Positions 30,841 to 50,149 of a stretch of DNA of 64,000 nt are shown here, piece by piece. Below the pieces are notes generated by a model. It made no database searches, was not told the DNA's origin, and worked only from the letters and a program-made list of their open reading frames with translations. The first letter of the stretch is position 1; each line of letters begins with the position of its first letter. Source of the stretch: Methylomonas koyamae (lineage in GTDB: Bacteria; Pseudomonadota; Gammaproteobacteria; Methylococcales; Methylomonadaceae); the NCBI RefSeq assembly GCF_019669905.1, contig NZ_AP019777.1:1922001-1986000 (forward strand), given 5' to 3'. The translations under genes and the position numbers were made by a program.

Positions 30841-30856
30841 TGGCCTGCACTTTGCT
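30841..30856 (+). promoter_or_regulatory. Sigma-54 (RpoN) -24/-12 promoter candidate
   Basis: TGGCCTGCACTTTGCT has the GG-N10-GC core and the TTGCT -12 element of RpoN promoters (consensus TGGCAC-N5-TTGCW), with two mismatches in the -24 half. Transcription would start near 30867, about 90 bases ahead of the first surface-protein gene. RpoN with the PrsK-PrsR pair is known to drive PEP-CTERM-type surface genes in other bacteria, so the match fits the context. Confidence 0.55.
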
Positions 30857-30955
30857 TATAAAGCGGATGGATTCAGTGGCTAAGCCCCTGGCCCCGGCCG
30901 CTTTGCGCAAAATAAGTCAGCCAGTCGGACCGGGCTTTAACAGACAGGAGATCAT

Positions 30956-32026
30956 TTGTTCATGTTTGGCCTTAAATCGGAGCGTGATAGGCACATAGCT
31001 GTTTTGCGCTACCAAATCAGATTAGATATAGAACGATATCGCAGCAATTTCGGATGCTCACTGGCGTTATTAGCTGCTTTCTTGACACCCACCGGGTTGA
31101 TTGCGGCCGAATTGTCTAATTTTACGGTTACCGATGTCACGACGCGGGCATTTTCAATTGTTTGGGTGGCTGACCAACCGGTTGAGTCCGCCAAAATTAA
31201 AGTATTTAACGACGAACAGGGGATATCGGAAATTACCCAGAATGTGTCGGTCAAGTTGGTCAGTCCTAGTGCTGCACTACAGCGGGGAATTGTAAAAATC
31301 GATGTTACAGGACTGGTTGCCGAGACGCCCTATTATGTGTCGGGAGAAATTACTGATAGAGCGGGTGCGCTGAGCTCCTTCCCGAAAAATGCAGAACCGC
31401 TGTTAGCGGTTCGTACCGCCAAAGAAGCCAATCGTATTGACGGTGACGGCCAATCGATAGCCAATGACCTGATTCGGCAGCCCGTGGCTGACGTAGATGG
31501 TAGCTCGGCTGCCGGCGGAACCCTCGTCTTAATCGATGTACCCGCTAAATCCTTATACCCGGTTGCCGCGTTTGTCAATCAAGACCAATCTGGGTCAAGC
31601 GTACTTGTCGACTTGAACAACGTGTTTGCAAAATTCAATTCCTCAAGCTTGAAGATCAATCCCGGAGAACCTCTGGAAATTAAGCAGTTTCGGGGGAATG
31701 TCTGCGATGAATCAAAACAGGTGTTATCGATTTTTCGGCGCCTGCCTAAGTCCGACGTAGCAGTTAACGCCGCAAAAATTACAGAACTTCAGACCTGCTT
31801 CAGCCCGGATGGTAAAGCCACCGATTTTAATTGCGACGGCAATATAGGGTTTGGAGATTTCAACTTATTTTTGGGTAAATTCGGTACTACCAACGACAGC
31901 CAATCCCCAAGTTGCAGTTTTAACCGCGACTTTGACCTGAACAACGATAAAACAATCGATTTTGGAGATTTCAATTTGTTTTTATCGGTGTTCGGCAAAG
32001 TCGAAAAGCCGGATTCGCAACCCTAG
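30956..32026 (+). CDS. Secreted fibronectin-like protein with a dockerin-type C-terminus
   Basis: A 356-residue exported protein. A long positively charged lead precedes a hydrophobic signal segment (FGCSLALLAAFLTPTGLIAA). The mature N-terminal half is an FN3-like domain (AELSNFTVTDVTTRAFSIVW, VESAKIKVFND, TPYYVSGEITDRAG). The C-terminus has two EF-hand-like calcium loops: DFNCDGNIGFGD and DLNNDKTIDFGD, each followed by FNLFL..FG, the dockerin type I plan. Loop residues 1, 3, 5 and 12 are Asp or Asn in both. AGGAG at 30946-30950 serves either TTG at 30956 or ATG at 30962. It is probably a client that docks onto a cohesin on the cell surface; this is inference. Confidence 0.75.
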   Translation: MFMFGLKSERDRHIAVLRYQIRLDIERYRSNFGCSLALLAAFLTPTGLIAAELSNFTVTDVTTRAFSIVWVADQPVESAKIKVFNDEQGISEITQNVSVKLVSPSAALQRGIVKIDVTGLVAETPYYVSGEITDRAGALSSFPKNAEPLLAVRTAKEANRIDGDGQSIANDLIRQPVADVDGSSAAGGTLVLIDVPAKSLYPVAAFVNQDQSGSSVLVDLNNVFAKFNSSSLKINPGEPLEIKQFRGNVCDESKQVLSIFRRLPKSDVAVNAAKITELQTCFSPDGKATDFNCDGNIGFGDFNLFLGKFGTTNDSQSPSCSFNRDFDLNNDKTIDFGDFNLFLSVFGKVEKPDSQP

Positions 32027-32051
32027 CACAAGCTGGATAAACATAGAGCTC

Positions 32052-34598
32052 ATGGCTGACCTCACTAATAATTACGCTAAATATCTTACTCTTGCCGCTT
32101 CTGTCGTTTGTGCCAATTTCGCAATTGCCGACAATGTTGTTGCTAGGCCAGAAATAAAGATACTGCCTGCATTGATCAGACCGGACGCCAATCGAGTGAT
32201 ACGTTTTTCGGTTGGCGTCAGCGACATCGCCGAGCCCGGACTTTCGTCTTTTGCTCTCGACCTGGAATTTTCAGGTCCGATAAACCTGGTTCAAACCATA
32301 CAAAATCAATCGGCCTCACCGATACCGGCCGATAAAATTACCTGCGCCGCGGGGCTAAATTCCGGATCACCCAGCGAGACGATCATCCCAAACGTATTTG
32401 TGCAGCTCCAGTCAGGCTTGGGCGATTTTTTCCTAAGCGGCAAGGGCACTGGGACTGTATTAGCGCTAAAAAATGAATTCAACGGCAGCAGCGCCCGCTA
32501 CGCTTTTGGTTTGGCGGGTGATGCATCCAAAATCACGCCTAAAACCGGATCGGGCTCGATTATCGAATTCCGTTGCATGGCGGGAGCCAATGTCTCAAAT
32601 TCCGCGCAGATCGTCGTAACACCCAAATTCATTTTCGGCAACAGCGGCGCCTTGTTCTTGTTCGGTCAGGGCAGTCCGATTGATAGCGGCATAACCGAGG
32701 GTGTTATTCGTTTAGCCGAACCCGGAGTAGCGCCGATAGCGCATAACGACGAAGTTAGCTCACGTGTCGGAGAAACGTTGATTATCGATGTCGTGGCGAA
32801 CGACACGGATACAGAGGACGGTATTCCGACGGGCAATTTGTCCATTAAGTCAGATCCAGTTAATGGTAGTGTGGCCGTTCTTAATCGGCAGATTCGTTAC
32901 GTACCCGGTTCTAATTTCAAAGGTAGCGATAGCTTCACTTATGCTGTGCAAGACAGCCAGGGACTGGAGTCCAATCCGGCAACGGTACAAGTACATGTGG
33001 GAGCTATCAACAGCCCTCCGGTAGCCGAGGACGACCAGGCTAATACCCAAGAAGACTCTGCAGTTACCATCGATTTGTTGGCCAATGATAACGATCCCGA
33101 CCAGGACTCCCTGGTTTTACAGTCGTTGGGTTCCGCCAGCAACGGTAGCTTGGCGAATAATGGCACTAGCGTGATTTACACGCCTAAGCCAAACTTTCAC
33201 GGTACCGACAGTTTCAGTTACCAGATAAATGACGGGAACAACGGCACCAGTTCGGCCACCGCCTACATTACCGTGGCTTCGGCCAACGATCTGCCGCTAG
33301 CCAATCCGGACCATGCGTCGACGGCAGAAGACCAACCTGTCGTTATAGCGGTTCTCGGGAATGACACGGATATCGACGGCGATTTATTGAGTATTGCCTC
33401 GGTGACTCAAGGCAGCCATGGCAGCGTCGAAATTTCCGGTAATCAGCTAAGCTACCGCCCAAATCGCGATTATTTCGGTGCGGATAGCTTTATTTATACA
33501 GTTTCGGATGGGAAGGGCGGTTTGGCTCAGGGCAATGTCGCCGTGGTCGTCGCTTCGGTTAACGATGCTCCCGTCGCTAAGGTTCGCGTCCCCCAAAACC
33601 AGTTATTGAACCAACAAATCGTTATCGACGGCTCTGGGTCGTCGGACGCGGATTACGATTCCTTGACTTTCCAATGGTCGCTCAAGCCACCGGCGGGCAG
33701 CAAAGCCAAACTTAATTTGCTAAACAGCGTTTCGCCGCTATTGACGCCGGATTTGCCTGGCGATTACCAGATAAAACTGGTCGTTACGGATGCAAACGGT
33801 GTGAGCGATAGCAGCGAAGCACTCGTCAGTGCCGCCGATCCGTCGCAAGGCAATCTCGCGCCAAATGCGTTGATCGCGTCGTTGCCCAAGGAAGTTCCCG
33901 TCAACGTGCTGCTTGATCTGGATGGTGGTCCCAGCGTTGATCCTGATGACGCTCCGAGTCCGCAACTCAGCTTCGCCTGGAAATTGACCAAGGTGCCAAA
34001 CGGTAGCGCCGCGCAATTGATATCCGCGGGCCAAGCACAAAGTGCATTGGTTCCGGATATCGAAGGCGACTACAGTCTGGAATTGTCGGTCAGCGACGGT
34101 GCGAAACAGTCGAAAGCACAAGCCGTTTTCCACGCAACAGTTGGTAACGTGGCGCCTGTTGCCGTTGCCGGAACCGATCAAACCGTTACTAAAGGCGTTC
34201 CGCTGCTGGTACGCGGAGCCGATAGTTACGATGCCGACGACGCATCAAATGCGCTTGCGTTCAAATGGACATTGGTTACCGCACCGGCGGGAAGCACGCT
34301 AAAAACTGCGCTCCAGGGAGTGGCAGAAAATAGCGAATTGAACCTAACTCCGGATTTGGCGGGAGATTACCTACTACGTTTGGATGTCGCCGATCCGCAA
34401 GGCAACGCCGATTTCGATCAGGTACTGGTTACCGCCAGATTGGCCGGCGATCTGGATTTCGATAACGACGTCGATATCAACGATTTGAATCTGTATAAAG
34501 CCGCGCCGACCGACATCAACAAGGACGGCGTCGTCAACGTTCTTGATTATCGGGCGGCCACATTACTGTGTACTCGGCCCAAGTGTGCAACGCAGTAA
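32052..34598 (+). CDS. Large secreted cadherin/PKD-type protein with C-terminal dockerin
   Basis: An 848-residue exported protein. A signal peptide (YLTLAASVVCANFAIA) is followed by a beta-rich module resembling cohesin (IRFSVGVSDIAEPGLSSFAL), three tandem cadherin-like repeats with the hallmark blocks DVVANDTDTEDG, DLLANDNDPDQD and AVLGNDTDIDGD and YVPGSNFKGSDSFTY, YTPKPNFHGTDSFSY and YRPNRDYFGADSFIY, then three PKD/REJ-like modules (VIDGSGSSDADYDSLTFQWSL, TPDLPGDYQIKLVVTD, TPDLAGDYLLRLDVAD). The end is a dockerin pair: DFDNDVDINDLN and DINKDGVVNVLD. The ATG at 32052 gives the signal peptide its proper place. It is encoded 25 bases after the first dockerin protein and 99 before the cohesin-like anchor. 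Confidence 0.78.
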   Translation: MADLTNNYAKYLTLAASVVCANFAIADNVVARPEIKILPALIRPDANRVIRFSVGVSDIAEPGLSSFALDLEFSGPINLVQTIQNQSASPIPADKITCAAGLNSGSPSETIIPNVFVQLQSGLGDFFLSGKGTGTVLALKNEFNGSSARYAFGLAGDASKITPKTGSGSIIEFRCMAGANVSNSAQIVVTPKFIFGNSGALFLFGQGSPIDSGITEGVIRLAEPGVAPIAHNDEVSSRVGETLIIDVVANDTDTEDGIPTGNLSIKSDPVNGSVAVLNRQIRYVPGSNFKGSDSFTYAVQDSQGLESNPATVQVHVGAINSPPVAEDDQANTQEDSAVTIDLLANDNDPDQDSLVLQSLGSASNGSLANNGTSVIYTPKPNFHGTDSFSYQINDGNNGTSSATAYITVASANDLPLANPDHASTAEDQPVVIAVLGNDTDIDGDLLSIASVTQGSHGSVEISGNQLSYRPNRDYFGADSFIYTVSDGKGGLAQGNVAVVVASVNDAPVAKVRVPQNQLLNQQIVIDGSGSSDADYDSLTFQWSLKPPAGSKAKLNLLNSVSPLLTPDLPGDYQIKLVVTDANGVSDSSEALVSAADPSQGNLAPNALIASLPKEVPVNVLLDLDGGPSVDPDDAPSPQLSFAWKLTKVPNGSAAQLISAGQAQSALVPDIEGDYSLELSVSDGAKQSKAQAVFHATVGNVAPVAVAGTDQTVTKGVPLLVRGADSYDADDASNALAFKWTLVTAPAGSTLKTALQGVAENSELNLTPDLAGDYLLRLDVADPQGNADFDQVLVTARLAGDLDFDNDVDINDLNLYKAAPTDINKDGVVNVLDYRAATLLCTRPKCATQ

Positions 34599-34697: not shown

Positions 34698-35279
34698 ATG
34701 TCGAAATTTTCACTTTTAACCGTATCGGGATTGGCTCTGGCACTGAGCGCATTCTCTGCATCGGCAGCCACGCTTTCTGTGGACATGGTTCCCGGCGGAG
34801 TCATTGATCAGAATCTGATAATCACCGACAGCCCAAGCTTTAGCGTTAATATCTTGGTAGCGGATGTCGCCGATCTGGCCGGCTTTGAATTCAACCTCGA
34901 TTTCGACGGCACACTAATTTCAGCGGACTCCATCATCAGCGGCAATCTGTTCGGTGCCGATACCTGGCCGATAACCAGCCAGATCAATGCAAATTCGATC
35001 AGCTTTTCCGAGACAACTTTTGCGGCAGGTTTGGAAATAAGCTCGCCGGTCATACTGGCAACCATCAATTTTCAAGCGGTAAGTCCGGGTAGCAGCAGCC
35101 TGACGCTGTCGTCCGTGCTGTTGTCCGATTCGCTTGCCGCCAGTATCTCGCCGGTCGGTATCGAAAACGGCGGCGTATATCTGGCCCCGGTTCCGCTGCC
35201 TCCTGCTTTTCTGTTGTTTTCAAGCGGCTTAGCCTGGCTTGTCGGTAGATCTCGGCAAAAATCCCTGCAAGTAGCCTAA
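34698..35279 (+). CDS. Cohesin-like protein with VPLPA-CTERM sorting signal
   Basis: A 193-residue exported protein. After a signal peptide (LLTVSGLALALSAFSASA) comes one beta-sandwich domain of cohesin type: FSVNILVADVADLAGFEFNL, then DGTLISADSIISG, and a closing VILATINFQAVSPGSSSLTL. The end has the sorting signal VPLPPAFLLFSSGLAWLVG followed by RSRQK: a VPLPA motif, a membrane helix and a basic tail, as in exosortase (XrtD-type) substrates. The protein should be cut and attached or exported by an exosortase encoded elsewhere. As a membrane-linked cohesin next to two dockerin proteins it is the natural anchor of the locus. Ribosome site AGGAG precedes the ATG. Confidence 0.8.
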   Translation: MSKFSLLTVSGLALALSAFSASAATLSVDMVPGGVIDQNLIITDSPSFSVNILVADVADLAGFEFNLDFDGTLISADSIISGNLFGADTWPITSQINANSISFSETTFAAGLEISSPVILATINFQAVSPGSSSLTLSSVLLSDSLAASISPVGIENGGVYLAPVPLPPAFLLFSSGLAWLVGRSRQKSLQVA

Positions 35280-35287
35280 AGCTCTGA

Positions 35288-35452: not shown

Positions 35453-38400
35453 ATGGTATTGGGCAGAGTTCAACTCACGTTAGTGATGGTTGTTGCACTA
35501 CTGTTATTGTCGCTGCAAGGCGCCCAGGCAATCGTCGCCGGCCCGCCCAATCAGGACATACCCGCCCAAACCATTACCGCCAATACCACCTGGCCGAATA
35601 TCGGCGTTCCTTACCATGTAAATGGCAGCATAACAGTTGCCGCTGGCGTAACCCTGACGATTGCCGCCGGCACGGAATTGGCTTTTGCGCCTAACGCCAC
35701 GTTGAATGTTAACGGCAATTTGTTCGTCCAAGGCTCGGCCGAGCAAAACGCCCAATTTCATCGCCTCGATCAGGCCCAGACGTGGGGCGGCATTATTCTC
35801 AACGCCGGTTCAACTTCGAATATTCGCCATGCCGAAATTGGTGGAGCGGTCACATGCTTGACCGTAAATGGCGGCGCTCAGGACATCGCGAATAGTGTGC
35901 TCAGCGAATGTACCAGCTATGGTGCTTACCTCTCGTCGGCAAATACTGTGGTGCTCGCCAATAGTCATATCGTCCAAAATCAAACCGGCGTTTATGTGAA
36001 CAGTGGTTCGCCTCGCATCGAGAACAACCTGATCGTAGAGAACAGCAGTTACGGGATCTTTTCGAACAGCTCGGCATCGCCGAAGATTCGCTACAACACC
36101 ATTGATTTGAACGGCGGTGAAGGGGTGTATTTTTACGCTCCGTCGGCGAGTCTGGTGTTCGAAAACAACATTGTGACGCGTAATAGGACTGGGCTTTACG
36201 CTTATGGCAGCGACTTTGTGCGCGGCTACAACAACGTGTGGGGCAATGGTACCGACAGACTTAATGGGGGTTACACCACTATAACAACCCCGAAAGCGAA
36301 CGAGATTTCCAGCGACCCACAATACCAAAGCCGGTACTTGGGCGATTGGCGGTTGACCGCCGGTTCGCCATCGAAAACCGCGTCGGCGAGCGGCGGCGAG
36401 ATCGGCGCTTACGGCAACGGCGGCAACGTCGCGGTGTACCAGTCCGGCTACAGCACCACACCGACCACCAGCGGCAGCCTGACGCAGAACGAGCGTTGGA
36501 GCGGCGAAGTGGTCTTGACCGGGTCTGTTACGGTCAACTGGCCGTGGCGGCTGGTGATCGAGCCGGGCACGCGCATCAAGGTGCCGGCCAATGCCAGCCT
36601 GAACGTCAACAGTTTGGCCAGTCTGGTGGGCACGGCGGCAGCGCCGATCATCTTCGAGCCGGCGGCGGGCGGCCAATGGAGCGGTCTGACGATCGGCAAC
36701 AATGCCGCGGCCAGTGTGGTACGGCACGTGCACATCAGTGGTGCCAACACCTGCTTGAGCCTGTCCGGAGTGCCGCATGAGATCGGCCATAACAACTTTA
36801 TTGGTTGCGGCACGGCGATCATGGTCAACTCCGGTGCGCCGACGATCGAGAACAATCTGATTGTGGAGAACAGCAGTTACGGGATCTTTTCGAACAGCTC
36901 GGCATCGCCGAAGATTCGCTACAACACCATTGATTTGAACGGCGGTGAAGGGGTGTATTTTTACGCTCCGTCGGCGAGTCTGGTGTTCGAAAACAACATT
37001 GTGACGCGCAACCGGACGGGGCTTTATGCCTATTACGGCAGCGACTTCTCGCGCGGTTACAACAACGTGTGGGGTAACGGCACCGATCGGGCTTCTGGCG
37101 GTGATAGCTACATCAAGACGCCGAAAGCGAACGAGATTTCCAGCGACCCACAATACCAAAGCCGGTACTTGGGCGATTGGCGGTTGACCGCCGGTTCGCC
37201 ATCGAAAACCGCGTCGGCGAGCGGCGGCGAGATTGGTGCCTATGGCAACGGCGGCAACGTTGCGGTGTACCAGCCGAGCTTTAGCACCACGCCGACCACC
37301 AGCGGCAGCCTGACGCAGAACGAGCGTTGGAGCGGGGAAGTGGTTTTGTCGGGCGATGTTACGGTGAATTGGCCGTGGCGACTGGTGATCGAGCCCGGCA
37401 CGCGAATCAAGGTGCCGGCCAATGCCAGCCTGAATGTCAACAGCCTGGCCAGTCTGATAGGCACGGCGGCAGCGCCGATCATCTTCGAGCCGGCGGCGGG
37501 CGGCCGATGGAGCGGCCTGACGATCGGCAACGATGCCGCGGCCAGTGTGGTACGGCATGTGCAAATCAGTGGCGCCAACACCTGCTTGAGCCTGTCCGGA
37601 GTGCCGCACGAGATCGGCCATAACAACTTTATTGGTTGCGGCACGGCGATCATGGTCAACTCCGGTGCGCCGACGATCGAGAACAACCTGATCGTGGAGA
37701 ACAGCGGTTACGGGATCTTTTCGAACAGCTCGGCATCGCCGAAGATTCGCTACAACACCATTGATTTGAACGGCGGTGAAGGGGTGTATTTTTACGCTCC
37801 GTCGGCGAGTCTGGTGTTCGAAAACAACATTGTGACGCGTAATAGGACTGGGCTTTACGCTTATGGCAGCGACTTTGTGCGCGGCTACAACAACGTGTGG
37901 GGCAATGGTACCGACAGACTTAATGGGGGTTACACCACTATAACAACCCCGAAAGCGAACGAGATTTCCAGCGACCCACAATACCAAAGCCGGTACTTGG
38001 GCGATTGGCGGTTGACCGCCGGTTCGCCGTCGAAAACCGCGTCGTCCAGTGGCGGCGAGATCGGTGCCTATGGCAACGGCGGCAACGTTGCGGTGTACCA
38101 GCCGAGCTTTAGCACCACGCCAACCACCAGCGGCAGCCTGACGCAGAACGAGCGTTGGAGCGGGGAAGTGGTTTTGTCGGGCGATGTTACGGTGAATTGG
38201 CCGTGGCGACTGGTGATCGAGCCCGGCACGCGAATCAAGGTGCCGGCCAATGCCAGCCTGAATGTCAACAGCCTGGCCAGTCTGATAGGCACGGCGGCAG
38301 CGCCGATCATCTTCGAGCCGGCGGCGGGCGGCCAATGGAGCGGTCTGACGATCGGCAACAATGCCGCGGCCAGTGTGGTACGGCACGTGCACATCAGTGG

Positions 38401-41400
38401 TGCCAACACCTGCTTGAGCCTGTCCGGAGTGCCGCATGAGATCGGCCATAACAACTTTATTGGTTGCGGCACGGCGATCATGGTCAACTCCGGTGCGCCG
38501 ACGATCGAGAACAACCTGATCGTGGAGAACAGCGGTTACGGGATCTTTTCGAACAGTAGTGCGGCGCCGAAGATTCGCTATAACACGATCGATTTGAACG
38601 GCGGTGAAGGGGTGTATTTTTACGCTCCGTCGGCGAGTCTGGTGTTCGAAAACAACATTGTGACGCGTAATAGGACTGGGCTTTACGCTTATGGCAGCGA
38701 CTTTGTGCGCGGCTACAACAACGTGTGGGGCAATGGTACCGACAGACTTAATGGGGGTTACACCACTATAACAACCCCGAAAGCGAACGAGATTTCCAGC
38801 GACCCACAATACCAAAGCCGGTACTTGGGCGATTGGCGGTTGACCGCCGGTTCGCCATCGAAAACCGCGTCGGCGAGCGGCGGCGAGATCGGCGCCTATG
38901 GCAACGGCGGCAACGTCGCGGTGTACCAGCCGAGCTTTAGCACCACGCCAACCACCAGCGGCAGCCTGACGCAGAACGAGCGTTGGAGCGGGGAAGTGGT
39001 TTTGTCGGGCGATGTTACGGTGAATTGGCCGTGGCGACTGGTGATCGAGCCGGGCACGCGAATCAAGGTGCCGGCCAATGCCAGCCTGAATGTCAACAGC
39101 CTGGCCAGTCTGGTGGGCACGGCGGCAGCGCCGATCATCTTCGAGCCGGCGGCGGGCGGCCAATGGAGCGGTCTGACGATCGGCAACAATGCCGCGGCCA
39201 GTGTGGTACGGCACGTGCACATCAGTGGTGCCAACACCTGCTTGAGCCTGTCCGGAGTGCCGCATGAGATCGGCCATAACAACTTTATTGGTTGCGGCAC
39301 GGCGATCATGGTCAACTCCGGTGCGCCGACGATCGAGAACAATCTGATTGTGGAGAACAGCGGTTACGGGATCTTTTCGAACAGCGCGTCGCCGAAGATT
39401 CGCTACAACACCATTGATTTGAACGGCGGTGAAGGGGTGTATTTTTACGCTCCGTCGGCGAGTCTGGTGTTCGAAAACAACATTGTGACGCGCAACCGGA
39501 CGGGGCTTTATGCCTATTACGGCAGCGACTTCTCGCGCGGTTACAACAACGTGTGGGGTAACGGCACCGATCGGGCTTCTGGCGGTGATAGCTACATCAA
39601 GACGCCGAAAGCGAGCGAGATTTCCAGCGACCCGCAATACCTTGATCCGTACCAAGGCGACCGCCGCCTGGCGGCCGGTTCGGCCTCGAAAACCGCGTCG
39701 GAGACCGGTGGCGAGATTGGTGCTTACGGCAATGGCGGCGACGCACCGTTATTCGATCCGGTTTACAGTACCACGCCGACCACCAGCGGTAGCCTGACCC
39801 AGAACGAGCGTTGGAGCGGAGAAGTGGTATTGACCGATAGTGTCTCGGTCAACTGGCCATGGCGGCTCGACATCGAGCCCGGCACCGTCATCAAAATGCC
39901 GGCCAGCGCCAGCCTTACGGTAAATAGCGTCGCCAGTATCGTCGGCACCGCCCAGCAACCGATAGTATTCGAAGCGGCATTTGCCGGTAGCCAATGGAGC
40001 GGCATCGTTATTAGCGACAGCGCGTCGGGTAGCGTTGTCAGGTATGCGCAAATCAGCGGTGCCAGCACTTGTCTTACCGTGCAAGGCTCGGTACACGAAA
40101 TCAACCGCAATCTGATCAGTGGCTGCGGCACTGGGATAATGGTCAACAACGGATCGCCCCGTGTCGAAAACAACCTGATCGTTGAAAACCGCAGTTACGG
40201 GATCTATTCCTATAGCAGTGCGGCGCCGAAGATTCGCTATAACACGATCGATTTGAACGGTGCCGAAGGCGTTTATTTTTACAGTCCGTCGGCGAGTCTG
40301 GTGTTGGAAAACAACATTGTCACGCGCAACCGGGTAGGGCTTTATGCCTATTACGGCAGCGATTTCACGCGCGGTTACAACAATGTGTGGGGTAACGGTA
40401 CCGATCGGGATTCTGGCGGTGATAGCTACATAAAGACGCCGAAAGCCACCGAGCAATCCATCGACCCCCAATACTCCGATAACGACCGCCATCTCGCCGA
40501 CACTTCGCCATCCAAAGCAGCCAGCAGCGACGCTACCGAGCTCGGCGCTTACGGTGGATCGGTTTTGTTGCCGTTACCGACGGTTAACCCGGTCGCTTCG
40601 CCAACCGCCGATACTGAAGCCACGCTGTCCGGCTTGAAAGCCGCTGGAACTGGCATCGCGCTGAACGGTATAACCGTTGTGGCGCCGGATGCGCAAACCT
40701 CCTGGTCATTACCGGTGTCTTTGATTTCCGGTACCAATCTATTGGCCCTTTACGCAGTCGACGAACTGAACCACCGCAGCGACAGCGTAATGGTCAGAGT
40801 CGTTCGAGATTCTTCGGCGCCGACCATCTCAGGTAGTACTCCCGCCAACGGCGCGCGGGTGACAGGGCCGTTGTCCGAGGTACGGCTGCGTTTGTCCGAT
40901 AGCCAAGGCGCTATCGATTATGGCCAAGCGTTGGCTTCCGCCCGGGTGGCCGGTCAGGCTCAAGGCTTGATCGCCGGCCAATGGAGCCGTGCCGGCAACG
41001 AATTGGTGTTTGCCGCCAATACGCCATTGGCCAAGGATATCTACAGCGTCAGTGTCTTGGTGAAAGACAATTTAGCTAATTCCGGCTTGGTGTCAGTAAT
41101 TTTTACAGTGGTCGACGGCGCCGATTTGCCGCAATCGCTGCCGGTGATTTCCAATATACGCTTCAATAACCAAGCATTGGCTAGCGGCGCGACACTGGCT
41201 AAATCCGGAACCTTGAGCCTGAACGCCGACGACAACAACGGCATCGGCCGCGTCGAGTTTTCGCTTGACGGCCAATTGTTTGCAACCGACAGCATCGGTT
41301 CCAATAGTTTTTCCGCCTTTTGGGATATTGTAAAAATTTCTGACGGTGCTCATACGTTGGAAATCCGCGCTTACGACACCTTGGGCAACAAAGCCACCAC

Positions 41401-44400
41401 CACGGTCAATGTTACTGTCGCGCTCAGTGCGCCCGGCACGCCCAGCCTGGAGTCGCCGGTGAATGGCCTTCTGACGAACCAGATGCAGACCATGGTCAGC
41501 GGGGTGGCGGAAAAGGGTAGCCAGGTGTTGCTTTTCGATAACGGGGTTCAAGTCGCCGGTCCGCTGGCGTTGGACGGCGCCAATCGCTATTCCGGTTCGA
41601 TTGCGTTGCAATTGGGTAGTAACTCGCTGCAGGCCGCCGCCGAGAATCGCGGTGGCCGCAGCCCGTTGACTGGGGCGGTACAGGTCATGGTCGATGCATC
41701 GATACCGCCTGCGCCGGTTAGCTTGAGCGCAACCGGCCGCGAGTCGGGCACTATTCGCTTGAATTGGACCGCCGTTCAGGCCAACGGCTTGGCCGGGTAT
41801 GCGCTGTACCGATCCACCGGTCCGTTCGACACCACGACGCAAGCCATACGGGTGAACAGCCAATTGCTGGCCGGCACCAGTTTCGAGGATTTTCCGGGCG
41901 TCGATGGTCAATACTATTACCGCTTGGTTGCCGTCAATCATGCCGGTACCGCCAGTGCCGTGTCCAACCAGGTTAACGCCGTGGCCGATGCCACGCCGCC
42001 GCGTGCCACGACGATTTCCTATACTCCTGCCGGCGCTTTCGATGCGGCCACGGGACGCATGGGGCCGGGCCGCGTTGCCGTGGACATTGAGGTCAGCGAA
42101 ATCCTGTCCGAAAAACCGTTCCTGACTTTGACGCCGGACGGTGGCACGCCGATTGCCGTTGAGCTAGCCAAAGTAAACGACACCCGTTACCAGGGGGCAT
42201 TCGATATCGCCGATGACACTCTGACCGGTACCGCCTATGCCGTGTTTTCCGCCCGCGACCGCTTCGGCAATCGCGGCACTGAAATCGATAGTGGCTCGAC
42301 AATCCGGATCGATACCGACGGCCCTAAAGTCGTTCGACTCAATGTCGCACCCGGCGATCCGATCAAAAACGATCCGCAACCGGCGACGCTACAGATTGAG
42401 CTGGAACTGGATACCGAGTTGCCGACGAACGCTAAGCCGGAATTGGCATACCAGCTTTCCGGCCAGGGTAGAGCGTTACAAAAGGCCGCATTAAGCCAGG
42501 CTGCGGCTAAGGTGTGGACTGCCAATTTTACGCTGCCCGCCGACGCTGGATTGAATGCAATCGAAACGCTGACCTTGTCGTTGTTGGCTCCAGATGACTT
42601 GGGTAACGCGGCTCAGACCATTGAAGGCGGCAATCGCTTCCAGGTTTACCAAGGCCAACTACAGCCGTTGGAACCTCCCGCCGGATTGTCCGGCGAAGTA
42701 TTGGCCGGCGGCCGGGTTAAACTGCAATGGTTGCCGGTGAACGGCGCCGTCGATTACCAATTATTCCGCGCCGCGCCGGGAGAAACCGAACTGACGCCGT
42801 ATCGGCGCACCGGCTTGATTAGCGAATGGATCGACCAAACAGCGGTTGACGGTGTTCATCGTTATGCGATTGCCTCGGTTCGCGCGGCCAATACCCAAGA
42901 AGCGGTCAGCGGTTATGGCGAAATCGTCGAGCTCAACGCCGATGCCACGCCACCGCAAGCGCCGAATGGCTTGGCTTTGGTGTTGACGGGTTCGGGGATT
43001 CGTGCTGACTGGCAAGCCCCCGCCAACGAACAGGACTTGAGCTACCGCTACTATCGCCAAGCTCAACCCATACAGTCGGTAAACGGCCTAACGCCGATTT
43101 TGGCCAATATCTCCAAACTGTACGCGTGGGATACGACGCCATCTCCCGCCGACCACTATTACAGCGTCACAGCCGTGGATGCCGCGGGCAACGAGTCGTT
43201 GCCGGCCGCTTCCCAGTACCTGAATTTTAGCTTGTTACCGGTCAGCGACCTTTTGGTGGTGCAGACCGACCAGGCATTGCCGGACTTAAGCTGGCAGACC
43301 GGCGGCGGCCAAAACGGCTATAACGTTTATTTGCTTGATAGCGGCCAATGGCTGAAGTTGACTCAAAATCCGCTGAATCTAACGGCTTATACCGACACCG
43401 GTTATGCGGAAACTGAACGTCACTACGCGATAGCTCAGGTCGATGCCAACGGTGTCGAGAGCCCGCGCCGCGAGGTGTTCTTGCCGAAAATCGGCTTGCA
43501 AGCGCCGACCGGCGGTCTGGCGCGCGGCCTGATGAATCGTCTGGAATACGCCGTCAGCAACGGCAGCGACCGGCCGCTATCGGTTTTGAGCGTCACCGCC
43601 CAAATCGGTAATCACGCCTATCGCTCCGACGGTGTGACGCTGGCAGCGGGCGAGACGCGCATTATCCCGGTTGTTTTTGCCGGCCATGACGATTTGCCGG
43701 ATACGGCCGATTTGACCAGCACGGTTGAGGTGGCCGCCGAAACCGGAGAGGTCTCCCGCATTGTCCGCAATTCCAAAATTGCGGTGGGCGAAGGCGCTCT
43801 GGCGGCGAATTTGTTGAGCGCGGATTTTACCCGCGGTGCCGGCGGCCAGGTGCGTTTCAGTTTGTTCAACAGCAGTTCCGCCGAAGTCGAGATCGTTTCG
43901 GCATTGGGCCGAGGCGAAAGGGATTCCGACGAAATTCGCTTCCAGTTGCGCGACCAGGACGGCAACGTGCTTGCCACGCGCGCATTCCGTCAGCCTTTGG
44001 ACCAGAAGGCAACCACCTTGGCGGACGGCCGCACCGTCATTCGGATTCCGCCCGGCGAAACCTTTGTTTCGCAACCCATGCTGATGCCGGTGCCGTTGGC
44101 AGCGCCGGAGAATGTTTACCTCTATGCCGAAATAGACCACTTTTATTACCATCTGGGCCGCAACGGCCAGGCCGCTATTACCGGCAGCAAGGCGCAACGG
44201 CCGCTTAAATTGGTGGATGTCGCTTATCGCGGCGAGATCGATTCGATCAGCCCGGCGCATTCCTTCGGCAACGAAGATGTCGTGGTCAGCGGCCGGGCCA
44301 TGGACAATGGCAGCAACCAAGCATTGGCTTGGGCGCCGTTGAAATTGGTCATTAGCGTCAACGGCTTCGAGCGGGTGGCGGACGTGGTCAGCAACCGGCT

Positions 44401-47400
44401 AGGGCAGTTCAGTTACCGCTTCAAGCCGCTACCCGGCGAATCCGGCCGCTACCAAGTTGCGGCGATTCATCCGGATTTGCAGGATCGTCCGCTACAGGGC
44501 GAATTCACCATTGGTCGGGTACTAAGCGATCTTTCGCAAATCAAACTCACCAGTCCGCGCAATGTCGATCAGACCATCCCGCTGCGGTTGAGCGCGGGCA
44601 CCGGACTGCCGGCAACCGGCGTGAAAGTGGTATTCGAAGCGGCCGATCAGCCGCTGGGCGTATTGCCGGCCGGCATTCAACTCAGTTTGCCGTCCGCTTT
44701 GGATTTAGCGGCGGGCGAATCGGCGCCGGTAGCGGTTAATTTCCGCGCCGACAACAACGCGCAAGCCGTCGGTGTGTTGGTATTGTCGATCAGGAGCAAC
44801 GAAGCCGGCAATCAAACCTTGGCCAAGGTTCGCGTCGATTACACCCTGACCGAAGCCAAGCCGGTATTGGCGTTCAATCCCGGTTATATCGAGACCGGCG
44901 TGGCGCGCGGCGATTCGGCCACCGAAACCTTGACCTTGGAGAATCGAGGCCTGGCGGATCTGCACGACTTGCGCCTGGACTTGTTGACATCGGCCGGCAG
45001 TCCGGCGCCGTCTTGGGTATCGTTGGTGTCGCCGGCTCAAGTCGATACCGTGGCAGTCGGCCAGACTACAGCCGTAACACTAGCCTTTGCACCCAATCAG
45101 GCGGTTGCCGAAGGTTTGCAGGAGTTTCGCTTGCGAATTTCCAGTGCCGATACCGACCCGGTTGACGTCAATGTCTATGCCGCGGTCACCCAGTCCGGCA
45201 TCGGTCAGGTTAAATTTCATTTGTCGGATATTTATACCGCAACGCTGGACAAGAACGGCGTCGCGATCCCCGGCCTTGCCGGCGCGCAGATTAGGCTGCA
45301 AAACGAGGCGGTTACCTCGATAGACCTGACTCAGGCCAGCGATCAAGCCGGCGAATCTGTGTTTACCGACCTGCCGGCGGGACGCTATAAATTTAAAGCC
45401 ACGGCAGCCAACCACCAGGAAGTCATCGGCCGCTTGACCGTCAAGCCCGGTCTGACTCAAGTGCAGGAAGTGTTCCTGGATTACGACTTGGTCACGGTCG
45501 AGTGGAACGTCACTGAAGTACCGTTGCAGGATCGCTATGAGATTACCCTGAACGCCACCTACGAAACCGACGTGCCAGCGCCGGTGGTGGTGATGGAGCC
45601 GGGGGCGATCAATCTGCCGAAAATGAAGGCCGGCGAGGTGTATTACGGCGAGTTCACCTTAACCAACCACGGCTTGATTCGCGCCGAGGATTTACAGTTC
45701 AACCTGCCGACCGACGACGCTTTCCGCATCGAATTGCTGGGCGGCTTGCCTACCAGTCTTGAAGCCAAGGAAGTGGTGACGATTCCTTACCGGATCGTGG
45801 CCCTGAAAACGCTGGACCCGGGCGAAGACGGCGGTTCCGGCGCCGGTTGCCAACTGAAGCAGATTCCGCTTTGGGTCACGTATACCTATCACTGCGTCAA
45901 TGGTACTTGGCGGCGCGACGGGATTCAGAATTACGCCTATTATCCCTACGGCCAATGCAGCGTGCCGCCCATTTACGGCGGTATTGGCGGTGGCGGTTAC
46001 GGTGGCGGTTACGGTGGCGGTGGCGGTGGCGGCGGTTTTGGCGGCAGTGCCGGCGGTAGCGGTTCGATCGGTGCCGCTTCGCCGAGTGGGGCCTACGTCC
46101 CGCCTTCCATTTTGCCTGTGGGTAAACCCTTGGACGGCGATCAATGCCAGCCGGCGGCTGAACCCAAAGAGCCTGAAGATAAGCTGGACCCCCTGGTCAA
46201 ACAGTGTACAGGTAGCTGGGTCGATTCCGTCATGCGCCAGTATCAGGACCAAATGACGGATTTGAGTGTTAAGGTTGTTGGCGGCTACGCAACGATTAAA
46301 CGCCGATACTACGACGATGCTTGGCATTGGGAGCATGAAAGAACCCGATTAAAACTGACGCGCGATCTGTATTCCGGGCTGGTCGTGGCTATCGATCGGG
46401 GCGGAGTGGCTTACAAACCGGCCGCATTCGGTTCGGAGCACGTCTTTTTAAATGGCGCTTACCGTATCGTAAAAACTCAAACAGGATTTACTTGGGAAGA
46501 CGCCAATGGCAATTGGCAGCAGTATGATGCCAACGGCCGGGTGCTGGCGCATGGAAGTAAAGGGTCTCAGTTGTGGCAATTGGTCTACACCGATTCTGAA
46601 ACTTTGCATCCTGCCGCAATTGCCGACCGCAACGGCAACCCGGTGCTTTGGCTGGCGTACGACGCCGACGGCCATTTGCTAAGCGCGACCGACAAAACCG
46701 GCCGCAAAGTCCAATACCGCTATACCGGCGATTTGTTGACCCAAGTGATAGCTCCAACCGGCGCGGAATCCACTTACAGCTACGACGGCAAAGGTCGTCT
46801 GATTCGCAAGGTCGATGGTTTGGGCCGGGCCGAGCAAATCAGTTATCGGCGCAACGGTGATGTGGAGTCGGTGGTCAACGACGAAGGCCGTGCTACGTAT
46901 TTCGAATTCGGTTACGACAAAGCGGTTAAGGAGCGCTACGCCCAAATCAAAACCGCGGCCGGCAAGGTCACCGAAGTCTGGTACGACGACGACGGCGACG
47001 TGCTGCGCGCCGCGGTTAATGGCCGGCGTACCAAAACTGAAGAAACCAGCGGCCGTACCGAGATCGGTACCGACGAAAAAGGCAACGTCACCCGCATTAC
47101 CCGCGACGAATGGGACAAAATTACCCGTATCGTTTACCCGGACGGCAGCGAAGCCACGTTCGAATACGAAAACGTCTACCATCAAATCAAACGCCAAACC
47201 GACCCGCGCGGTAATGTCACCGAATACAGCTACGATGCCAATGGCAATCTGACCCGTCGGGTCGAAGCCAAAGGCACGGCCGCCGAACGGGCAGTGGTTT
47301 ACGCTTACGACGCGAACAATCAACTGACCGAAATGACCTTAGTCGGCGATGACAACACTGCGGCGGCGACCACGCGCTTGAGTTACGACGCCAGCGGTAA

Positions 47401-50149
47401 TCTGGCCAGTTTAACCGATCCGGAAGGAAACAAGACCCAGTTCCAGGCCTACGACGCGTCAGGCAATCCGTTAAAAATCAAAGATGCCCGCGGCAACGAA
47501 TGGACTTTTGCCTACGATGCCAACGGCCGCTTGACCGGCAAGACCGATCCGGAAGGCAACCACACCGCCTACCAATACGACGGCGCCGGTAACCGGGTGG
47601 CAACGGTCGATGCCGACGGCCAACGCCACGAGTATGCTTACAACCAGCGTAACCAAATCGTGCGCGCCACCGATCCGTTGGGCCATGCCAAAACCATCGC
47701 TTACAACAGTGACGGCTTGCCGGTGTTGGCGACCGACGAAACCGGCAAGCAAGTGGTCAACGATTACGACAACGAGCAACGTTTGTTGGCGACCAGCATC
47801 GGCAGCGACACCGAGTCTTACCAGACCCGTTATCGTTACGACGAAAGCAACGCTTCGTTCGCCGGCTCGGATCGTCCGGTACAAATCGATTATCCAACCT
47901 ACAGCAGCCGTTTGTATTACGACCGCCTGCAACGCCTGGTTCGCAATACCGACCAGTTGGATGTCGACACCCAACAAATCGTCAGCCGTGAATACGACGC
48001 CACCGGCAACGTGGTCTCAGAAACCGACCGGGAAGGCCGTACCACTTACCATGAATACGATGCCTTGAACCGCTTGCGGCAAACCACCGATCCGGCCGGC
48101 GGCGCGACCCGGTTTGCCTATAACGACCTAGGCAAACTGATCGCCTTGACCGATGCCAACGGCGGCGTTACCCGCTTCGAATACGACCGCAACGGCAGGC
48201 TGAGCGCCGAAATCCGGCCTCTGGGCGAAACCACCCAATACCAGTACGATGCGGCCGGTAACCGCATTGCCTTGCTGGATGCCAAAGGTCAGGCGATTCG
48301 CTACCAATACAGTGCGGCCAACCGCTTGCAGCGCGAGCAGCATTTTGTCGATAGTCAAAGCCAAACCCCGGTTAAAACCATAGACTACAGCTACGACAAG
48401 CTGGGCCGGCTGACCGGTTACGACGACGGCACCACCTCGGCTGCCTACAGCTACGATGCGCTGGGCCGCTTGACCGCCACCGCCACCGACTACGGCAGTT
48501 TTACGTTGTCCACGGCCTACAGCTATTACGCCAACGGCTTGAAGCAAAGCTATACCGGTCCGGACGGTCTCAGCTACCGCTACTTTTACGATGCGGCTAA
48601 CCGCTTGACTGCGGTGGAATTGCCGGACGGCAAGCGCGTGACCTACAACGGCTACACCTGGAACAGCCCGAACCGCGTTACCTTGCCGGGCGGCGTCACC
48701 ATCGATTACGCCTACGATGCTTTGCAACGGGTTAATCAGATTCACAGTAAAGACCCGCTGCAAGCCACCTTGATGAATTACCGTTACCAGCGTTCGGCCG
48801 GCGGCAACATCACCGCCAAACTCACCGAGCACGGCGACTATGGCTATCAATACGATGTGCTGGATCGCCTGACCGCTGTCGATAACCCGACCCTGGCTGA
48901 CGAAGCTTACAGTTACGATGCCTTGGGCAACCGGAAAACGGCAGCCAACACCAGCGGCGAATGGCAGTATGACGCCAACAATCGCTTGTTGTCCTATCCG
49001 GGCAATAGCTTCGCTTACGACGCCAACGGCAATCTGCAAACTAAAACCGCGCCGGGCAGCCAGCGTGTCTATCGTCACGACACCAGCAATCGCTTGGCCC
49101 ACGTCGAACGCAGCGACGGTTCGACGCTGGCCGAGTATTACTACGATCCGTTCGGCCGGCGCTTATGGAAGGATGTGGCCGGCGTCAGAACTTATTTCGC
49201 TTACGCCGAGGAAGGTCTGGTCGGCGAATTCGATGGCCAGGGTGGGTTGATCAAGTCCTACGGTTATCGGCCGGATGCGATGTGGACGACCGGGCCGTTA
49301 TTTCAATATGTTGCCGGTCAATATTATTGGTACCAGCACGACCATTTAATGACGCCGCAGAAACTGGTGGATGGCAATGGCTTAGTGGTCTGGAGCGCCA
49401 GGCAGGAAGCGTTCGGTAATATGCACGTATCGCTGGCGGCGGTGGGGAATAATTTGCGGTTTCCGGGGCAGTATTATGATTCGGAAACTGGGCTGCATTA
49501 TAATTATATGAGGGACTATGATCCGAGGGTTGGGAGGTATATCGAAAGTGATCCTATTGGGTTGGCTGGGGGAAATAGCCTTTATCTTTACGTGGATAGC
49601 AATAGTGCAAATTTTAGTGACAACTTAGGGAAATTTAAGATCGGTGTTGAATTTTATCGTTTATTGGGTGGTGGTGTTGCGATAACAATTAATCCCGATG
49701 GTACAGTGTATGGATCATTAAAGTTTGGTGTTGGTGTTGGTGGTGGTATAGATGTCTCCCCGAAAGAAAATTCGCCTAGTTATTCTGAACCATCAAATAA
49801 CTGTAACAGTAATTCTGACAAGCCAGAGCCATTCCTGAATGTAAGACAGGGTGTCGACCTATCTTGGGGAATAGGCTTTCTTAGTGATGGAGTAGGTTAT
49901 TCAGGAGGATTTGATTTGACGGATGGAGAATTCGGTACGAGGGTTAAACCTGTTCCTTTTAAATTGGAACCCACACTCAGTGTATCTCCACTTGAAAAAT
50001 TTAAAATTGGTGCTCAGGCGTCAGCGGGAATAGAAGGTAATTTGAAATTAGGCAATTTATCCAATATTAAAATGTCACCCGCGATGAGTAATCGATATTT
50101 TGCCAGCACGTATTTACTTGGGACTACGATCATGTGGTTGGCTCGTTGA
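35453..50149 (+). CDS. Giant beta-helix / Ig-FN3 / Rhs surface protein, 4,898 residues
   Basis: One unbroken frame of 14.7 kb. Start ATG at 35453 with AAGGA 8 bases upstream. Layout by residue: signal peptide 1-24 (VMVVALLLLSLQGAQA); right-handed beta-helix about 50-1700, mostly near-identical repeats with NNLIVENSSYGIFSN and NNIVTRNRTGLYAY; bacterial Ig-like and FN3-type modules about 1700-3500 (LNWTAVQANGLAGYALYRS, DATPPQAPNGLAL, CARDB-like stretches); Gly-rich hinge about 3509-3540; Rhs/YD-repeat shell about 3590-4670 (YDANGNLTRRVEAKG, YDALNRLRQTTDPAGG); Rhs core end YYDSETGLHYNYMRDYDP with ESDPIGLAGG near 4700; C-terminal tip of about 190 residues. It has no dockerin and no obvious sorting signal. 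The tip is AT-richer than the rest. Likely a secreted fibre or adhesin, possibly delivering or displaying the tip; function unproven. Confidence 0.85.
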   Translation: MVLGRVQLTLVMVVALLLLSLQGAQAIVAGPPNQDIPAQTITANTTWPNIGVPYHVNGSITVAAGVTLTIAAGTELAFAPNATLNVNGNLFVQGSAEQNAQFHRLDQAQTWGGIILNAGSTSNIRHAEIGGAVTCLTVNGGAQDIANSVLSECTSYGAYLSSANTVVLANSHIVQNQTGVYVNSGSPRIENNLIVENSSYGIFSNSSASPKIRYNTIDLNGGEGVYFYAPSASLVFENNIVTRNRTGLYAYGSDFVRGYNNVWGNGTDRLNGGYTTITTPKANEISSDPQYQSRYLGDWRLTAGSPSKTASASGGEIGAYGNGGNVAVYQSGYSTTPTTSGSLTQNERWSGEVVLTGSVTVNWPWRLVIEPGTRIKVPANASLNVNSLASLVGTAAAPIIFEPAAGGQWSGLTIGNNAAASVVRHVHISGANTCLSLSGVPHEIGHNNFIGCGTAIMVNSGAPTIENNLIVENSSYGIFSNSSASPKIRYNTIDLNGGEGVYFYAPSASLVFENNIVTRNRTGLYAYYGSDFSRGYNNVWGNGTDRASGGDSYIKTPKANEISSDPQYQSRYLGDWRLTAGSPSKTASASGGEIGAYGNGGNVAVYQPSFSTTPTTSGSLTQNERWSGEVVLSGDVTVNWPWRLVIEPGTRIKVPANASLNVNSLASLIGTAAAPIIFEPAAGGRWSGLTIGNDAAASVVRHVQISGANTCLSLSGVPHEIGHNNFIGCGTAIMVNSGAPTIENNLIVENSGYGIFSNSSASPKIRYNTIDLNGGEGVYFYAPSASLVFENNIVTRNRTGLYAYGSDFVRGYNNVWGNGTDRLNGGYTTITTPKANEISSDPQYQSRYLGDWRLTAGSPSKTASSSGGEIGAYGNGGNVAVYQPSFSTTPTTSGSLTQNERWSGEVVLSGDVTVNWPWRLVIEPGTRIKVPANASLNVNSLASLIGTAAAPIIFEPAAGGQWSGLTIGNNAAASVVRHVHISGANTCLSLSGVPHEIGHNNFIGCGTAIMVNSGAPTIENNLIVENSGYGIFSNSSAAPKIRYNTIDLNGGEGVYFYAPSASLVFENNIVTRNRTGLYAYGSDFVRGYNNVWGNGTDRLNGGYTTITTPKANEISSDPQYQSRYLGDWRLTAGSPSKTASASGGEIGAYGNGGNVAVYQPSFSTTPTTSGSLTQNERWSGEVVLSGDVTVNWPWRLVIEPGTRIKVPANASLNVNSLASLVGTAAAPIIFEPAAGGQWSGLTIGNNAAASVVRHVHISGANTCLSLSGVPHEIGHNNFIGCGTAIMVNSGAPTIENNLIVENSGYGIFSNSASPKIRYNTIDLNGGEGVYFYAPSASLVFENNIVTRNRTGLYAYYGSDFSRGYNNVWGNGTDRASGGDSYIKTPKASEISSDPQYLDPYQGDRRLAAGSASKTASETGGEIGAYGNGGDAPLFDPVYSTTPTTSGSLTQNERWSGEVVLTDSVSVNWPWRLDIEPGTVIKMPASASLTVNSVASIVGTAQQPIVFEAAFAGSQWSGIVISDSASGSVVRYAQISGASTCLTVQGSVHEINRNLISGCGTGIMVNNGSPRVENNLIVENRSYGIYSYSSAAPKIRYNTIDLNGAEGVYFYSPSASLVLENNIVTRNRVGLYAYYGSDFTRGYNNVWGNGTDRDSGGDSYIKTPKATEQSIDPQYSDNDRHLADTSPSKAASSDATELGAYGGSVLLPLPTVNPVASPTADTEATLSGLKAAGTGIALNGITVVAPDAQTSWSLPVSLISGTNLLALYAVDELNHRSDSVMVRVVRDSSAPTISGSTPANGARVTGPLSEVRLRLSDSQGAIDYGQALASARVAGQAQGLIAGQWSRAGNELVFAANTPLAKDIYSVSVLVKDNLANSGLVSVIFTVVDGADLPQSLPVISNIRFNNQALASGATLAKSGTLSLNADDNNGIGRVEFSLDGQLFATDSIGSNSFSAFWDIVKISDGAHTLEIRAYDTLGNKATTTVNVTVALSAPGTPSLESPVNGLLTNQMQTMVSGVAEKGSQVLLFDNGVQVAGPLALDGANRYSGSIALQLGSNSLQAAAENRGGRSPLTGAVQVMVDASIPPAPVSLSATGRESGTIRLNWTAVQANGLAGYALYRSTGPFDTTTQAIRVNSQLLAGTSFEDFPGVDGQYYYRLVAVNHAGTASAVSNQVNAVADATPPRATTISYTPAGAFDAATGRMGPGRVAVDIEVSEILSEKPFLTLTPDGGTPIAVELAKVNDTRYQGAFDIADDTLTGTAYAVFSARDRFGNRGTEIDSGSTIRIDTDGPKVVRLNVAPGDPIKNDPQPATLQIELELDTELPTNAKPELAYQLSGQGRALQKAALSQAAAKVWTANFTLPADAGLNAIETLTLSLLAPDDLGNAAQTIEGGNRFQVYQGQLQPLEPPAGLSGEVLAGGRVKLQWLPVNGAVDYQLFRAAPGETELTPYRRTGLISEWIDQTAVDGVHRYAIASVRAANTQEAVSGYGEIVELNADATPPQAPNGLALVLTGSGIRADWQAPANEQDLSYRYYRQAQPIQSVNGLTPILANISKLYAWDTTPSPADHYYSVTAVDAAGNESLPAASQYLNFSLLPVSDLLVVQTDQALPDLSWQTGGGQNGYNVYLLDSGQWLKLTQNPLNLTAYTDTGYAETERHYAIAQVDANGVESPRREVFLPKIGLQAPTGGLARGLMNRLEYAVSNGSDRPLSVLSVTAQIGNHAYRSDGVTLAAGETRIIPVVFAGHDDLPDTADLTSTVEVAAETGEVSRIVRNSKIAVGEGALAANLLSADFTRGAGGQVRFSLFNSSSAEVEIVSALGRGERDSDEIRFQLRDQDGNVLATRAFRQPLDQKATTLADGRTVIRIPPGETFVSQPMLMPVPLAAPENVYLYAEIDHFYYHLGRNGQAAITGSKAQRPLKLVDVAYRGEIDSISPAHSFGNEDVVVSGRAMDNGSNQALAWAPLKLVISVNGFERVADVVSNRLGQFSYRFKPLPGESGRYQVAAIHPDLQDRPLQGEFTIGRVLSDLSQIKLTSPRNVDQTIPLRLSAGTGLPATGVKVVFEAADQPLGVLPAGIQLSLPSALDLAAGESAPVAVNFRADNNAQAVGVLVLSIRSNEAGNQTLAKVRVDYTLTEAKPVLAFNPGYIETGVARGDSATETLTLENRGLADLHDLRLDLLTSAGSPAPSWVSLVSPAQVDTVAVGQTTAVTLAFAPNQAVAEGLQEFRLRISSADTDPVDVNVYAAVTQSGIGQVKFHLSDIYTATLDKNGVAIPGLAGAQIRLQNEAVTSIDLTQASDQAGESVFTDLPAGRYKFKATAANHQEVIGRLTVKPGLTQVQEVFLDYDLVTVEWNVTEVPLQDRYEITLNATYETDVPAPVVVMEPGAINLPKMKAGEVYYGEFTLTNHGLIRAEDLQFNLPTDDAFRIELLGGLPTSLEAKEVVTIPYRIVALKTLDPGEDGGSGAGCQLKQIPLWVTYTYHCVNGTWRRDGIQNYAYYPYGQCSVPPIYGGIGGGGYGGGYGGGGGGGGFGGSAGGSGSIGAASPSGAYVPPSILPVGKPLDGDQCQPAAEPKEPEDKLDPLVKQCTGSWVDSVMRQYQDQMTDLSVKVVGGYATIKRRYYDDAWHWEHERTRLKLTRDLYSGLVVAIDRGGVAYKPAAFGSEHVFLNGAYRIVKTQTGFTWEDANGNWQQYDANGRVLAHGSKGSQLWQLVYTDSETLHPAAIADRNGNPVLWLAYDADGHLLSATDKTGRKVQYRYTGDLLTQVIAPTGAESTYSYDGKGRLIRKVDGLGRAEQISYRRNGDVESVVNDEGRATYFEFGYDKAVKERYAQIKTAAGKVTEVWYDDDGDVLRAAVNGRRTKTEETSGRTEIGTDEKGNVTRITRDEWDKITRIVYPDGSEATFEYENVYHQIKRQTDPRGNVTEYSYDANGNLTRRVEAKGTAAERAVVYAYDANNQLTEMTLVGDDNTAAATTRLSYDASGNLASLTDPEGNKTQFQAYDASGNPLKIKDARGNEWTFAYDANGRLTGKTDPEGNHTAYQYDGAGNRVATVDADGQRHEYAYNQRNQIVRATDPLGHAKTIAYNSDGLPVLATDETGKQVVNDYDNEQRLLATSIGSDTESYQTRYRYDESNASFAGSDRPVQIDYPTYSSRLYYDRLQRLVRNTDQLDVDTQQIVSREYDATGNVVSETDREGRTTYHEYDALNRLRQTTDPAGGATRFAYNDLGKLIALTDANGGVTRFEYDRNGRLSAEIRPLGETTQYQYDAAGNRIALLDAKGQAIRYQYSAANRLQREQHFVDSQSQTPVKTIDYSYDKLGRLTGYDDGTTSAAYSYDALGRLTATATDYGSFTLSTAYSYYANGLKQSYTGPDGLSYRYFYDAANRLTAVELPDGKRVTYNGYTWNSPNRVTLPGGVTIDYAYDALQRVNQIHSKDPLQATLMNYRYQRSAGGNITAKLTEHGDYGYQYDVLDRLTAVDNPTLADEAYSYDALGNRKTAANTSGEWQYDANNRLLSYPGNSFAYDANGNLQTKTAPGSQRVYRHDTSNRLAHVERSDGSTLAEYYYDPFGRRLWKDVAGVRTYFAYAEEGLVGEFDGQGGLIKSYGYRPDAMWTTGPLFQYVAGQYYWYQHDHLMTPQKLVDGNGLVVWSARQEAFGNMHVSLAAVGNNLRFPGQYYDSETGLHYNYMRDYDPRVGRYIESDPIGLAGGNSLYLYVDSNSANFSDNLGKFKIGVEFYRLLGGGVAITINPDGTVYGSLKFGVGVGGGIDVSPKENSPSYSEPSNNCNSNSDKPEPFLNVRQGVDLSWGIGFLSDGVGYSGGFDLTDGEFGTRVKPVPFKLEPTLSVSPLEKFKIGAQASAGIEGNLKLGNLSNIKMSPAMSNRYFASTYLLGTTIMWLAR
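36020..40546 (+). repeat. Tandem array of 828/831-bp coding repeats in the giant gene
   Basis: Unit starts, taken at the Glu codon of ENNLIVEN: 36020, 36848, 37679, 38507, 39335 and 40166, giving periods of 828, 831, 828, 828 and 831 bp. Units 1-5 are nearly identical; unit 6 is more diverged and partial. Two alternative blocks alternate: GSDFVRGYNNVWGNGTDRLN (units 1, 3, 4) and GSDFSRGYNNVWGNGTDRAS (units 2, 5, with unit 6 close to it). Unit 4 carries, near 38555-38600, the silent variants of unit 6 rather than of its neighbours. Length changes keep the frame. Confidence 0.95.

Follow-up and report, generated by a model that had tools for sequence, protein, structure and literature searches.

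The neighbouring dockerin and cohesin genes of Methylomonas koyamae probably form a two-piece sorting and display unit, in which a small exosortase substrate acts as a socket that anchors exported dockerin-bearing cargo. Computed support was obtained from the presence of both domain types, an exosortase gene, a recurrent pairing with differing cargo, and the co-divergence of the two modules.

The window, i.e. the whole stretch of DNA analysed, comprises 64,000 nucleotides (C1:1922001-1986000) of a genome of 5.10 Mb on two contigs; features without a contig or locus label are given in window positions. Three adjoining genes were present with the features described for them in an earlier note on this DNA. 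P0001 (30956..32026, + strand, TTG start uncertain) is an exported protein whose N-terminal part is Ig/fn3-like and whose tail holds a dockerin-like pair of calcium loops (31823..31999, + strand). P0002 (32052..34598, + strand) is likewise exported; it has Big_9/cadherin-like and PKD domains and, at the C-terminus, a dockerin (34440..34595, + strand; last residues LCTRPKCATQ). P0003 (34698..35279, + strand) is the cohesin anchor protein, with a cohesin domain at 34770..35180 (+ strand) and a VPLPP motif, membrane helix and basic tail at 35190..35276 (+ strand), an exosortase-type sorting signal by anatomy. A giant beta-helix and RHS protein (35453..50149, + strand) comes next, directly followed by a REP-associated tyrosine transposase (50292-50915). 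A 723-aa He_PIG/Big_9 protein is found at 52971-55142, after rhodanese and transglutaminase-like genes.

The cohesin-like beta-sandwich claimed earlier for P0003 was borne out by Pfam, PDB and fold searches. PF00963 matched the protein with 29.0 bits against a cut-off of 24.1 (30.3 bits for the domain alone), and the domain showed the cohesin fold in searches that took in cohesin only. The cohesin search of PDB yielded 24 sequences at E≤1, namely 20 scaffoldin or anchoring proteins and four NagJ chains, the latter being carriers of a cohesin-like module.

The C-terminal sequence of P0003 is VPLPPAFLLFSSGLAWLVGRSRQKSLQVA, in which a VPLPx motif, a helix (262-285 in the model) and a basic tail were recognized, with XrtD encoded in the same genome. 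Of the VPLPA-CTERM signal claimed for this protein, the anatomy stood, whereas the tail had no match to TIGR03370 at E≤10 and none to the NCBIfam sorting models. By curated model P0003 is not a VPLPA-CTERM protein; judged by the anatomy of its sequence, it is one. Another cohesin anchor of the genome (C1:2437114) scored 17.9 bits with TIGR03370 (cut-off 25.35). With 150 of 189 candidates scored, 45 VPLPA-type tails were listed for the genome at E≤10, eight of them over the cut-off; the tail of P0003 was not among these 45. The genome check for an XrtD-type exosortase that had been suggested was positive, with a gene at C1:3377164 (593.7 bits, cut-off 400) adjoining those for GDP-mannose dehydratase and GDP-fucose synthase; XrtD is the VPLPA-specific exosortase. 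A profile built from only two VPLPA tails gave 17.3 bits for P0003 and 1.2 bits for its copy on contig C2. At ≥10 bits it matched 43 of 77 cohesin frames and 41 of 771 others (duplicates included), which carries little weight, and all 41 other frames have a VPxP-type motif. Two models of cohesin fused to dockerin reached pTM values of 0.64 and 0.71, an interface measure not being part of the output.

P0002 ends in two canonical 12-residue calcium loops, with D or N at positions 1, 3 and 5 and D at position 12, each followed by a helix in the predicted structure (20-28 and 41-49). The tail scored 20.6 bits with PF00404, under the cut-off of 22.9 which related tails pass (e.g., 32.0 bits at L157 and 27.9 bits at L151). 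Profile A1, made from 13 dockerins picked from genes adjoining cohesins and with P0002 as its first row, matched 17 PDB sequences at E≤0.1; 13 are cellulosomal, including the best six (top match 2y3n_B, 1.9e-5), and the remaining four are two serine-protease and two calmodulin-type chains. A tail end of the form D-x-R...C-[TSD]-x3-C was seen in 27 of 37 paired dockerins, the ten without it being nine ExeM-cluster dockerins and that of L158. The tail of P0001 scored 16.1 bits with EF-hand_1 and 13.2 bits with PF00404, both under cut-off, and is more conserved between the two copies of the operon than any other block (77% vs 23-62%); the homologue on plasmid pLM6 is annotated as hypothetical. 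Dockerin loop pairs had been claimed for both exported proteins, which holds for P0002 on its loops and the A1 matches in PDB, whereas P0001, with Pfam matches below cut-off, is only dockerin-like. The N-terminal domain of P0002 was considered as a second cohesin and rejected (hhalign probability 0.4%, no Pfam match).

The cohesin-dockerin pairing is a recurrent gene unit, conserved far beyond the window locus. Relatives of P0003 were matched in 22 of the 61 genomes searched, and many of the regions surrounding them show a dockerin gene adjoining the cohesin gene. A1 matches were found in 28 of 37 Methylomonas genomes, a count that, like the A1-based pairing counts, is biased because A1 was chosen from genes adjoining cohesins. 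Pairing was counted with all 98 A1 places and 76 listed cohesin rows, leaving out mainly-tail matches and second partial rows. Among the matches listed, a dockerin lay within 1.5 kb of 61 of 67 cohesin-anchor hits of ≥54 bits, and a listed cohesin within 1.5 kb of 62 of 86 dockerins of ≥24 bits (61 of the 62 downstream on the same strand; 24 dockerins without one), with a median distance of 104 bases between the two matches. Four of the six unpaired cohesins have a Pfam dockerin 0.9-4.1 kb off (C2:174614, C1:2436604, G011:C22 and G012:C1:978992), the fifth is located at a contig start (G014:C25), and for the sixth (C1:3171261) no dockerin was found in the 10 kb read. The last of these (L176:4944-5756) is a cohesin-like VPLPG protein.

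Pfam cohesins served as a control for the A1 bias, though the dockerin side is mostly A1 there too: a dockerin (Pfam or A1) lay within 1.5 kb of 28 of the 29 stand-alone Pfam cohesins in the 37 genomes, and within 5.5 kb of all 29, after four of 33 rows had been dropped as belonging to multi-cohesin frames. With Pfam on both sides the counts were seven of 29 (≤1.5 kb) and eight of 29 (≤5.5 kb), the chance expectation being 0.13. Of 71 Pfam dockerins, 38 had a cohesin matched by A2 or Pfam at a distance of at most 1.5 kb, and seven had one when Pfam alone was used. A1 dockerins occurred in 26 of 30 genomes with XrtD vs two of seven without (Fisher p 0.005), an association that is weak because five of the seven XrtD-less genomes are 2.0-2.8 Mb in size; pairs are present in two genomes (G026 and G030) in which XrtD was not over cut-off.

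Outside the genus, the pair was also met in other Methylococcales, in further Gammaproteobacteria, and in one bin each of Phycisphaerae and Desulfobulbaceae, some of the anchors being of the PEP-CTERM type. A1 matches were obtained in 51 of 201 genomes and 16 of 48 genera of the order sample and in 17 of 369 genomes of the class sample (the present M. koyamae genome included). Loci were read for 15 of the 16 other class-level genomes (G218 left out), and the cohesin gene was found by the dockerin gene, in either order, in ten and not in five. Their anchors end in PEP-type or VPxP signals or in a helix and basic tail only; the anchor of L146 passes TIGR02595 (21.2 vs 16 bits), and those of L149, L152, L154, L157 and L169 have the helix and basic tail but neither VPxP nor PEP. 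The named scan covered 18 loci, eight of which had adjoining cohesin and dockerin genes (three Methylococcaceae bins, Methylomonas sp. LW13, M. koyamae SM2, Methylovulum psychrotolerans, a Phycisphaerae bin and a Desulfobulbaceae bin) and one both domains in a single protein. Dockerins without cohesin were seen at L185 and L188, cohesin was absent at the five weakest hits, and a dockerin frame was not obtained at L187 and L189. Contigs already sampled are represented by L181-L184, L188 and L191, five of which gave rows to the query or to A3, and the new loci are L185-L187, L189, L190 and L192-L198; three of the eight paired loci are newly sampled, that of M. koyamae SM2 and those of the Phycisphaerae and Desulfobulbaceae bins, which belong to other phyla.

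For the comparison of cargo, 42 pairs with the dockerin gene first and fewer than 700 bases between the genes were reduced by five near-duplicates to 37. These fell into 14 cargo clusters without similarity at the threshold used, including the He_PIG family (10), ExeM/NucH nucleases (9), BNR proteins (4) and PKD proteins (2), further an M6 peptidase, a five-CxxCH cytochrome and others; a cellulase was not found in the cargo scanned. The nuclease of L020 (7742-11184) scored 663.6 bits with exonuc_ExeM-GG (NCBIfam; cut-off 300) and carries a terminal dockerin; the adjoining gene encodes a cohesin-like VPLPP protein without a Pfam cohesin match, assigned by a profile built partly from L020. The cytochrome (L093:7690-9714, Methylomonas G012) is multihaem, with five CxxCH motifs and a C-terminal dockerin, and lies beside a cohesin-VPLPA gene.

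The giant protein of the window (4898 aa) has neither dockerin nor cohesin among its 16 matched Pfam families, and the suggestion in the earlier note that this fibre may be gathered by the cohesin is unsupported in the window because of this lack of a detected dockerin. Elsewhere, dockerins are present in giants or RHS proteins adjoining cohesins (L016, L147, L148 and L156). At L016:10219-15270 (contig C2), the dockerin of an RHS protein lies between YD repeats and core, beside a cohesin-VPIPP gene. The C2 and pLM6 copies of the operon have the giant as a conserved neighbour as well; its two long matches to the C2 copy (part of that copy read) show 77-79% identity. A 14-kb piece of C2 matches three plasmid records, all from Methylomonas, the best being pLM6 of M. 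koyamae (95.3% over 76% of the query). Chromosomal and plasmid-borne forms of the operon both exist, the plasmid being typed mobilizable (L015 of contig C2, pLM6), and its two copies in the genome are old, since their third codon positions are only 37-55% identical. A multi-cohesin protein was not found among the window proteins scanned; at least one frame outside the window in the same genome has a cohesin-dockerin-cohesin order. This frame, 10762 aa long and located at G000:C1, about 2404050-2436330 (L033, L017 and L018), carries the three domains near its C-terminus and resembles an adaptor scaffoldin that has been fused to a giant repeat protein; it is followed by a 228-aa cohesin-VPLPP gene, and the same order is found in G011:C22.

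Distances among dockerins were correlated with those among the neighbouring cohesins (37 pairs, Mantel r 0.89; 0 of 5000 permutations as high), with a correlation of 0.62 among distant pairs only. Joint inheritance accounts for at least part of this co-divergence. A pooled network, in which any dockerin docks on any cohesin anchor and larger cellulosome-like complexes form via the cohesin-dockerin-cohesin giant, is rather unlikely: the genome has at least seven cohesin-anchor hits and at least one cohesin-dockerin-cohesin frame, 24 of 86 dockerins lack an adjoining listed cohesin, and two dockerin genes accompany one cohesin in the window and in the clusters of G004, G034 and G035, but the close gene pairing and an r of 0.89 between neighbours suggest dedicated pairs. 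Still less probable is the absence of docking, with the cohesin an ordinary beta-sandwich, the loops only stabilising the cargo tails, and the genes kept together by operon inheritance. Binding is a prediction, the tail of P0001 is as EF-hand-like as dockerin-like, and joint inheritance alone can produce correlated distances; yet both domains are of kinds known to bind each other, and 14 cargo clusters beside the same module are not explained by one inherited operon.

In the anchored-cohesin reading, P0003 would be exported by its signal peptide and kept in the inner membrane by the VPLPP tail until XrtD cuts this tail off, whereupon it would reach the cell surface or the extracellular polysaccharide. 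With calcium, the one cohesin that it carries is predicted to capture the C-terminal dockerin of exported P0002, and probably likewise the tail of P0001. Cargo without a sorting signal would be captured by a small adaptor that has one and would therefore be anchored in trans, as proposed here. A published working model has exosortase substrates held by their tails, processed and moved by an undefined route to the outside, where they connect polysaccharide with the cell surface (PMC12188702). This unsettled exit route and final place (PMC12188702) would suit a cohesin protein that escorts cargo through the envelope, the complex being released or periplasmic, but such a role is improbable, given that ExeM-type nucleases, BNR proteins and an M6 peptidase make sense outside the cell and that the cargo tails are no known kind of export signal. 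The anchored-cohesin system is the best reading because cohesin fold, P0002 dockerin, sorting-type tail, XrtD and a widely conserved gene pair were found; from these we infer binding, its calcium dependence, exosortase processing and the final location.

Clostridial cellulosomes have cohesin scaffoldins with SLH or sortase anchors. Their anchoring is alike in the cohesin fold, the duplicated calcium-loop dockerin and the anchor on the cohesin protein (PMC9012536). The present system differs in its Gram-negative methanotroph host, the one cohesin per anchor, the exosortase-type tail, cargo without cellulase among that examined, and cargo and anchor genes that are adjacent and co-diverging. ExeM nucleases with a GlyGly-CTERM tail (exonuc_ExeM-GG) belong to the same family as the L020 nuclease, which, unlike them, ends in a dockerin, with the sorting tail on the neighbouring cohesin-like protein; GlyGly-CTERM tails belong with the rhombosortase system. 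In ANME archaea, too, cohesin and dockerin are found apart from cellulose degradation, and a part in attaching proteins to the outer layer has been proposed; these archaea differ in having multi-cohesin scaffoldin-like proteins and ABC-transporter binding proteins, and the available text of these sources does not report an exosortase-anchored single-cohesin gene pair (PMC5244752, PMC9012536). A paper on bacterial partners of ANME also mentions both domains (PMC10553843). The hypothetical 'Planctosome' of freshwater Planctomycetes is alike as a cohesin-dockerin assembly with non-cellulolytic cargo and an adaptor, and differs in its lamin tail domain anchor and peptidase cargo, an exosortase signal not being reported in the part of the source available (PMC6461901). 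The pairing was not found described among the matches listed in the literature searched, and mention in surveys of non-cellulosomal cohesins or of exosortases is possible.

The role of cohesins and dockerins outside cellulosomes is described as an open question (PMC5244752). Here the two domains occur in a compact unit of two genes that is found repeatedly in culturable methanotrophs, and the prediction is that neighbour binds neighbour and that the exosortase puts the socket outside. The role of exosortases would then extend past their direct substrates, and matched pairs for surface display would be at hand. There is an even chance that a single-cohesin exosortase substrate serves Gram-negative bacteria of several phyla as a surface socket that is dedicated to its neighbour and matched to it in specificity, a general plug-and-socket alternative to fused sorting signals. 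If so, proteins as different as nucleases, peptidases, BNR proteins, RHS giants and a multihaem cytochrome could be displayed by gaining a dockerin.
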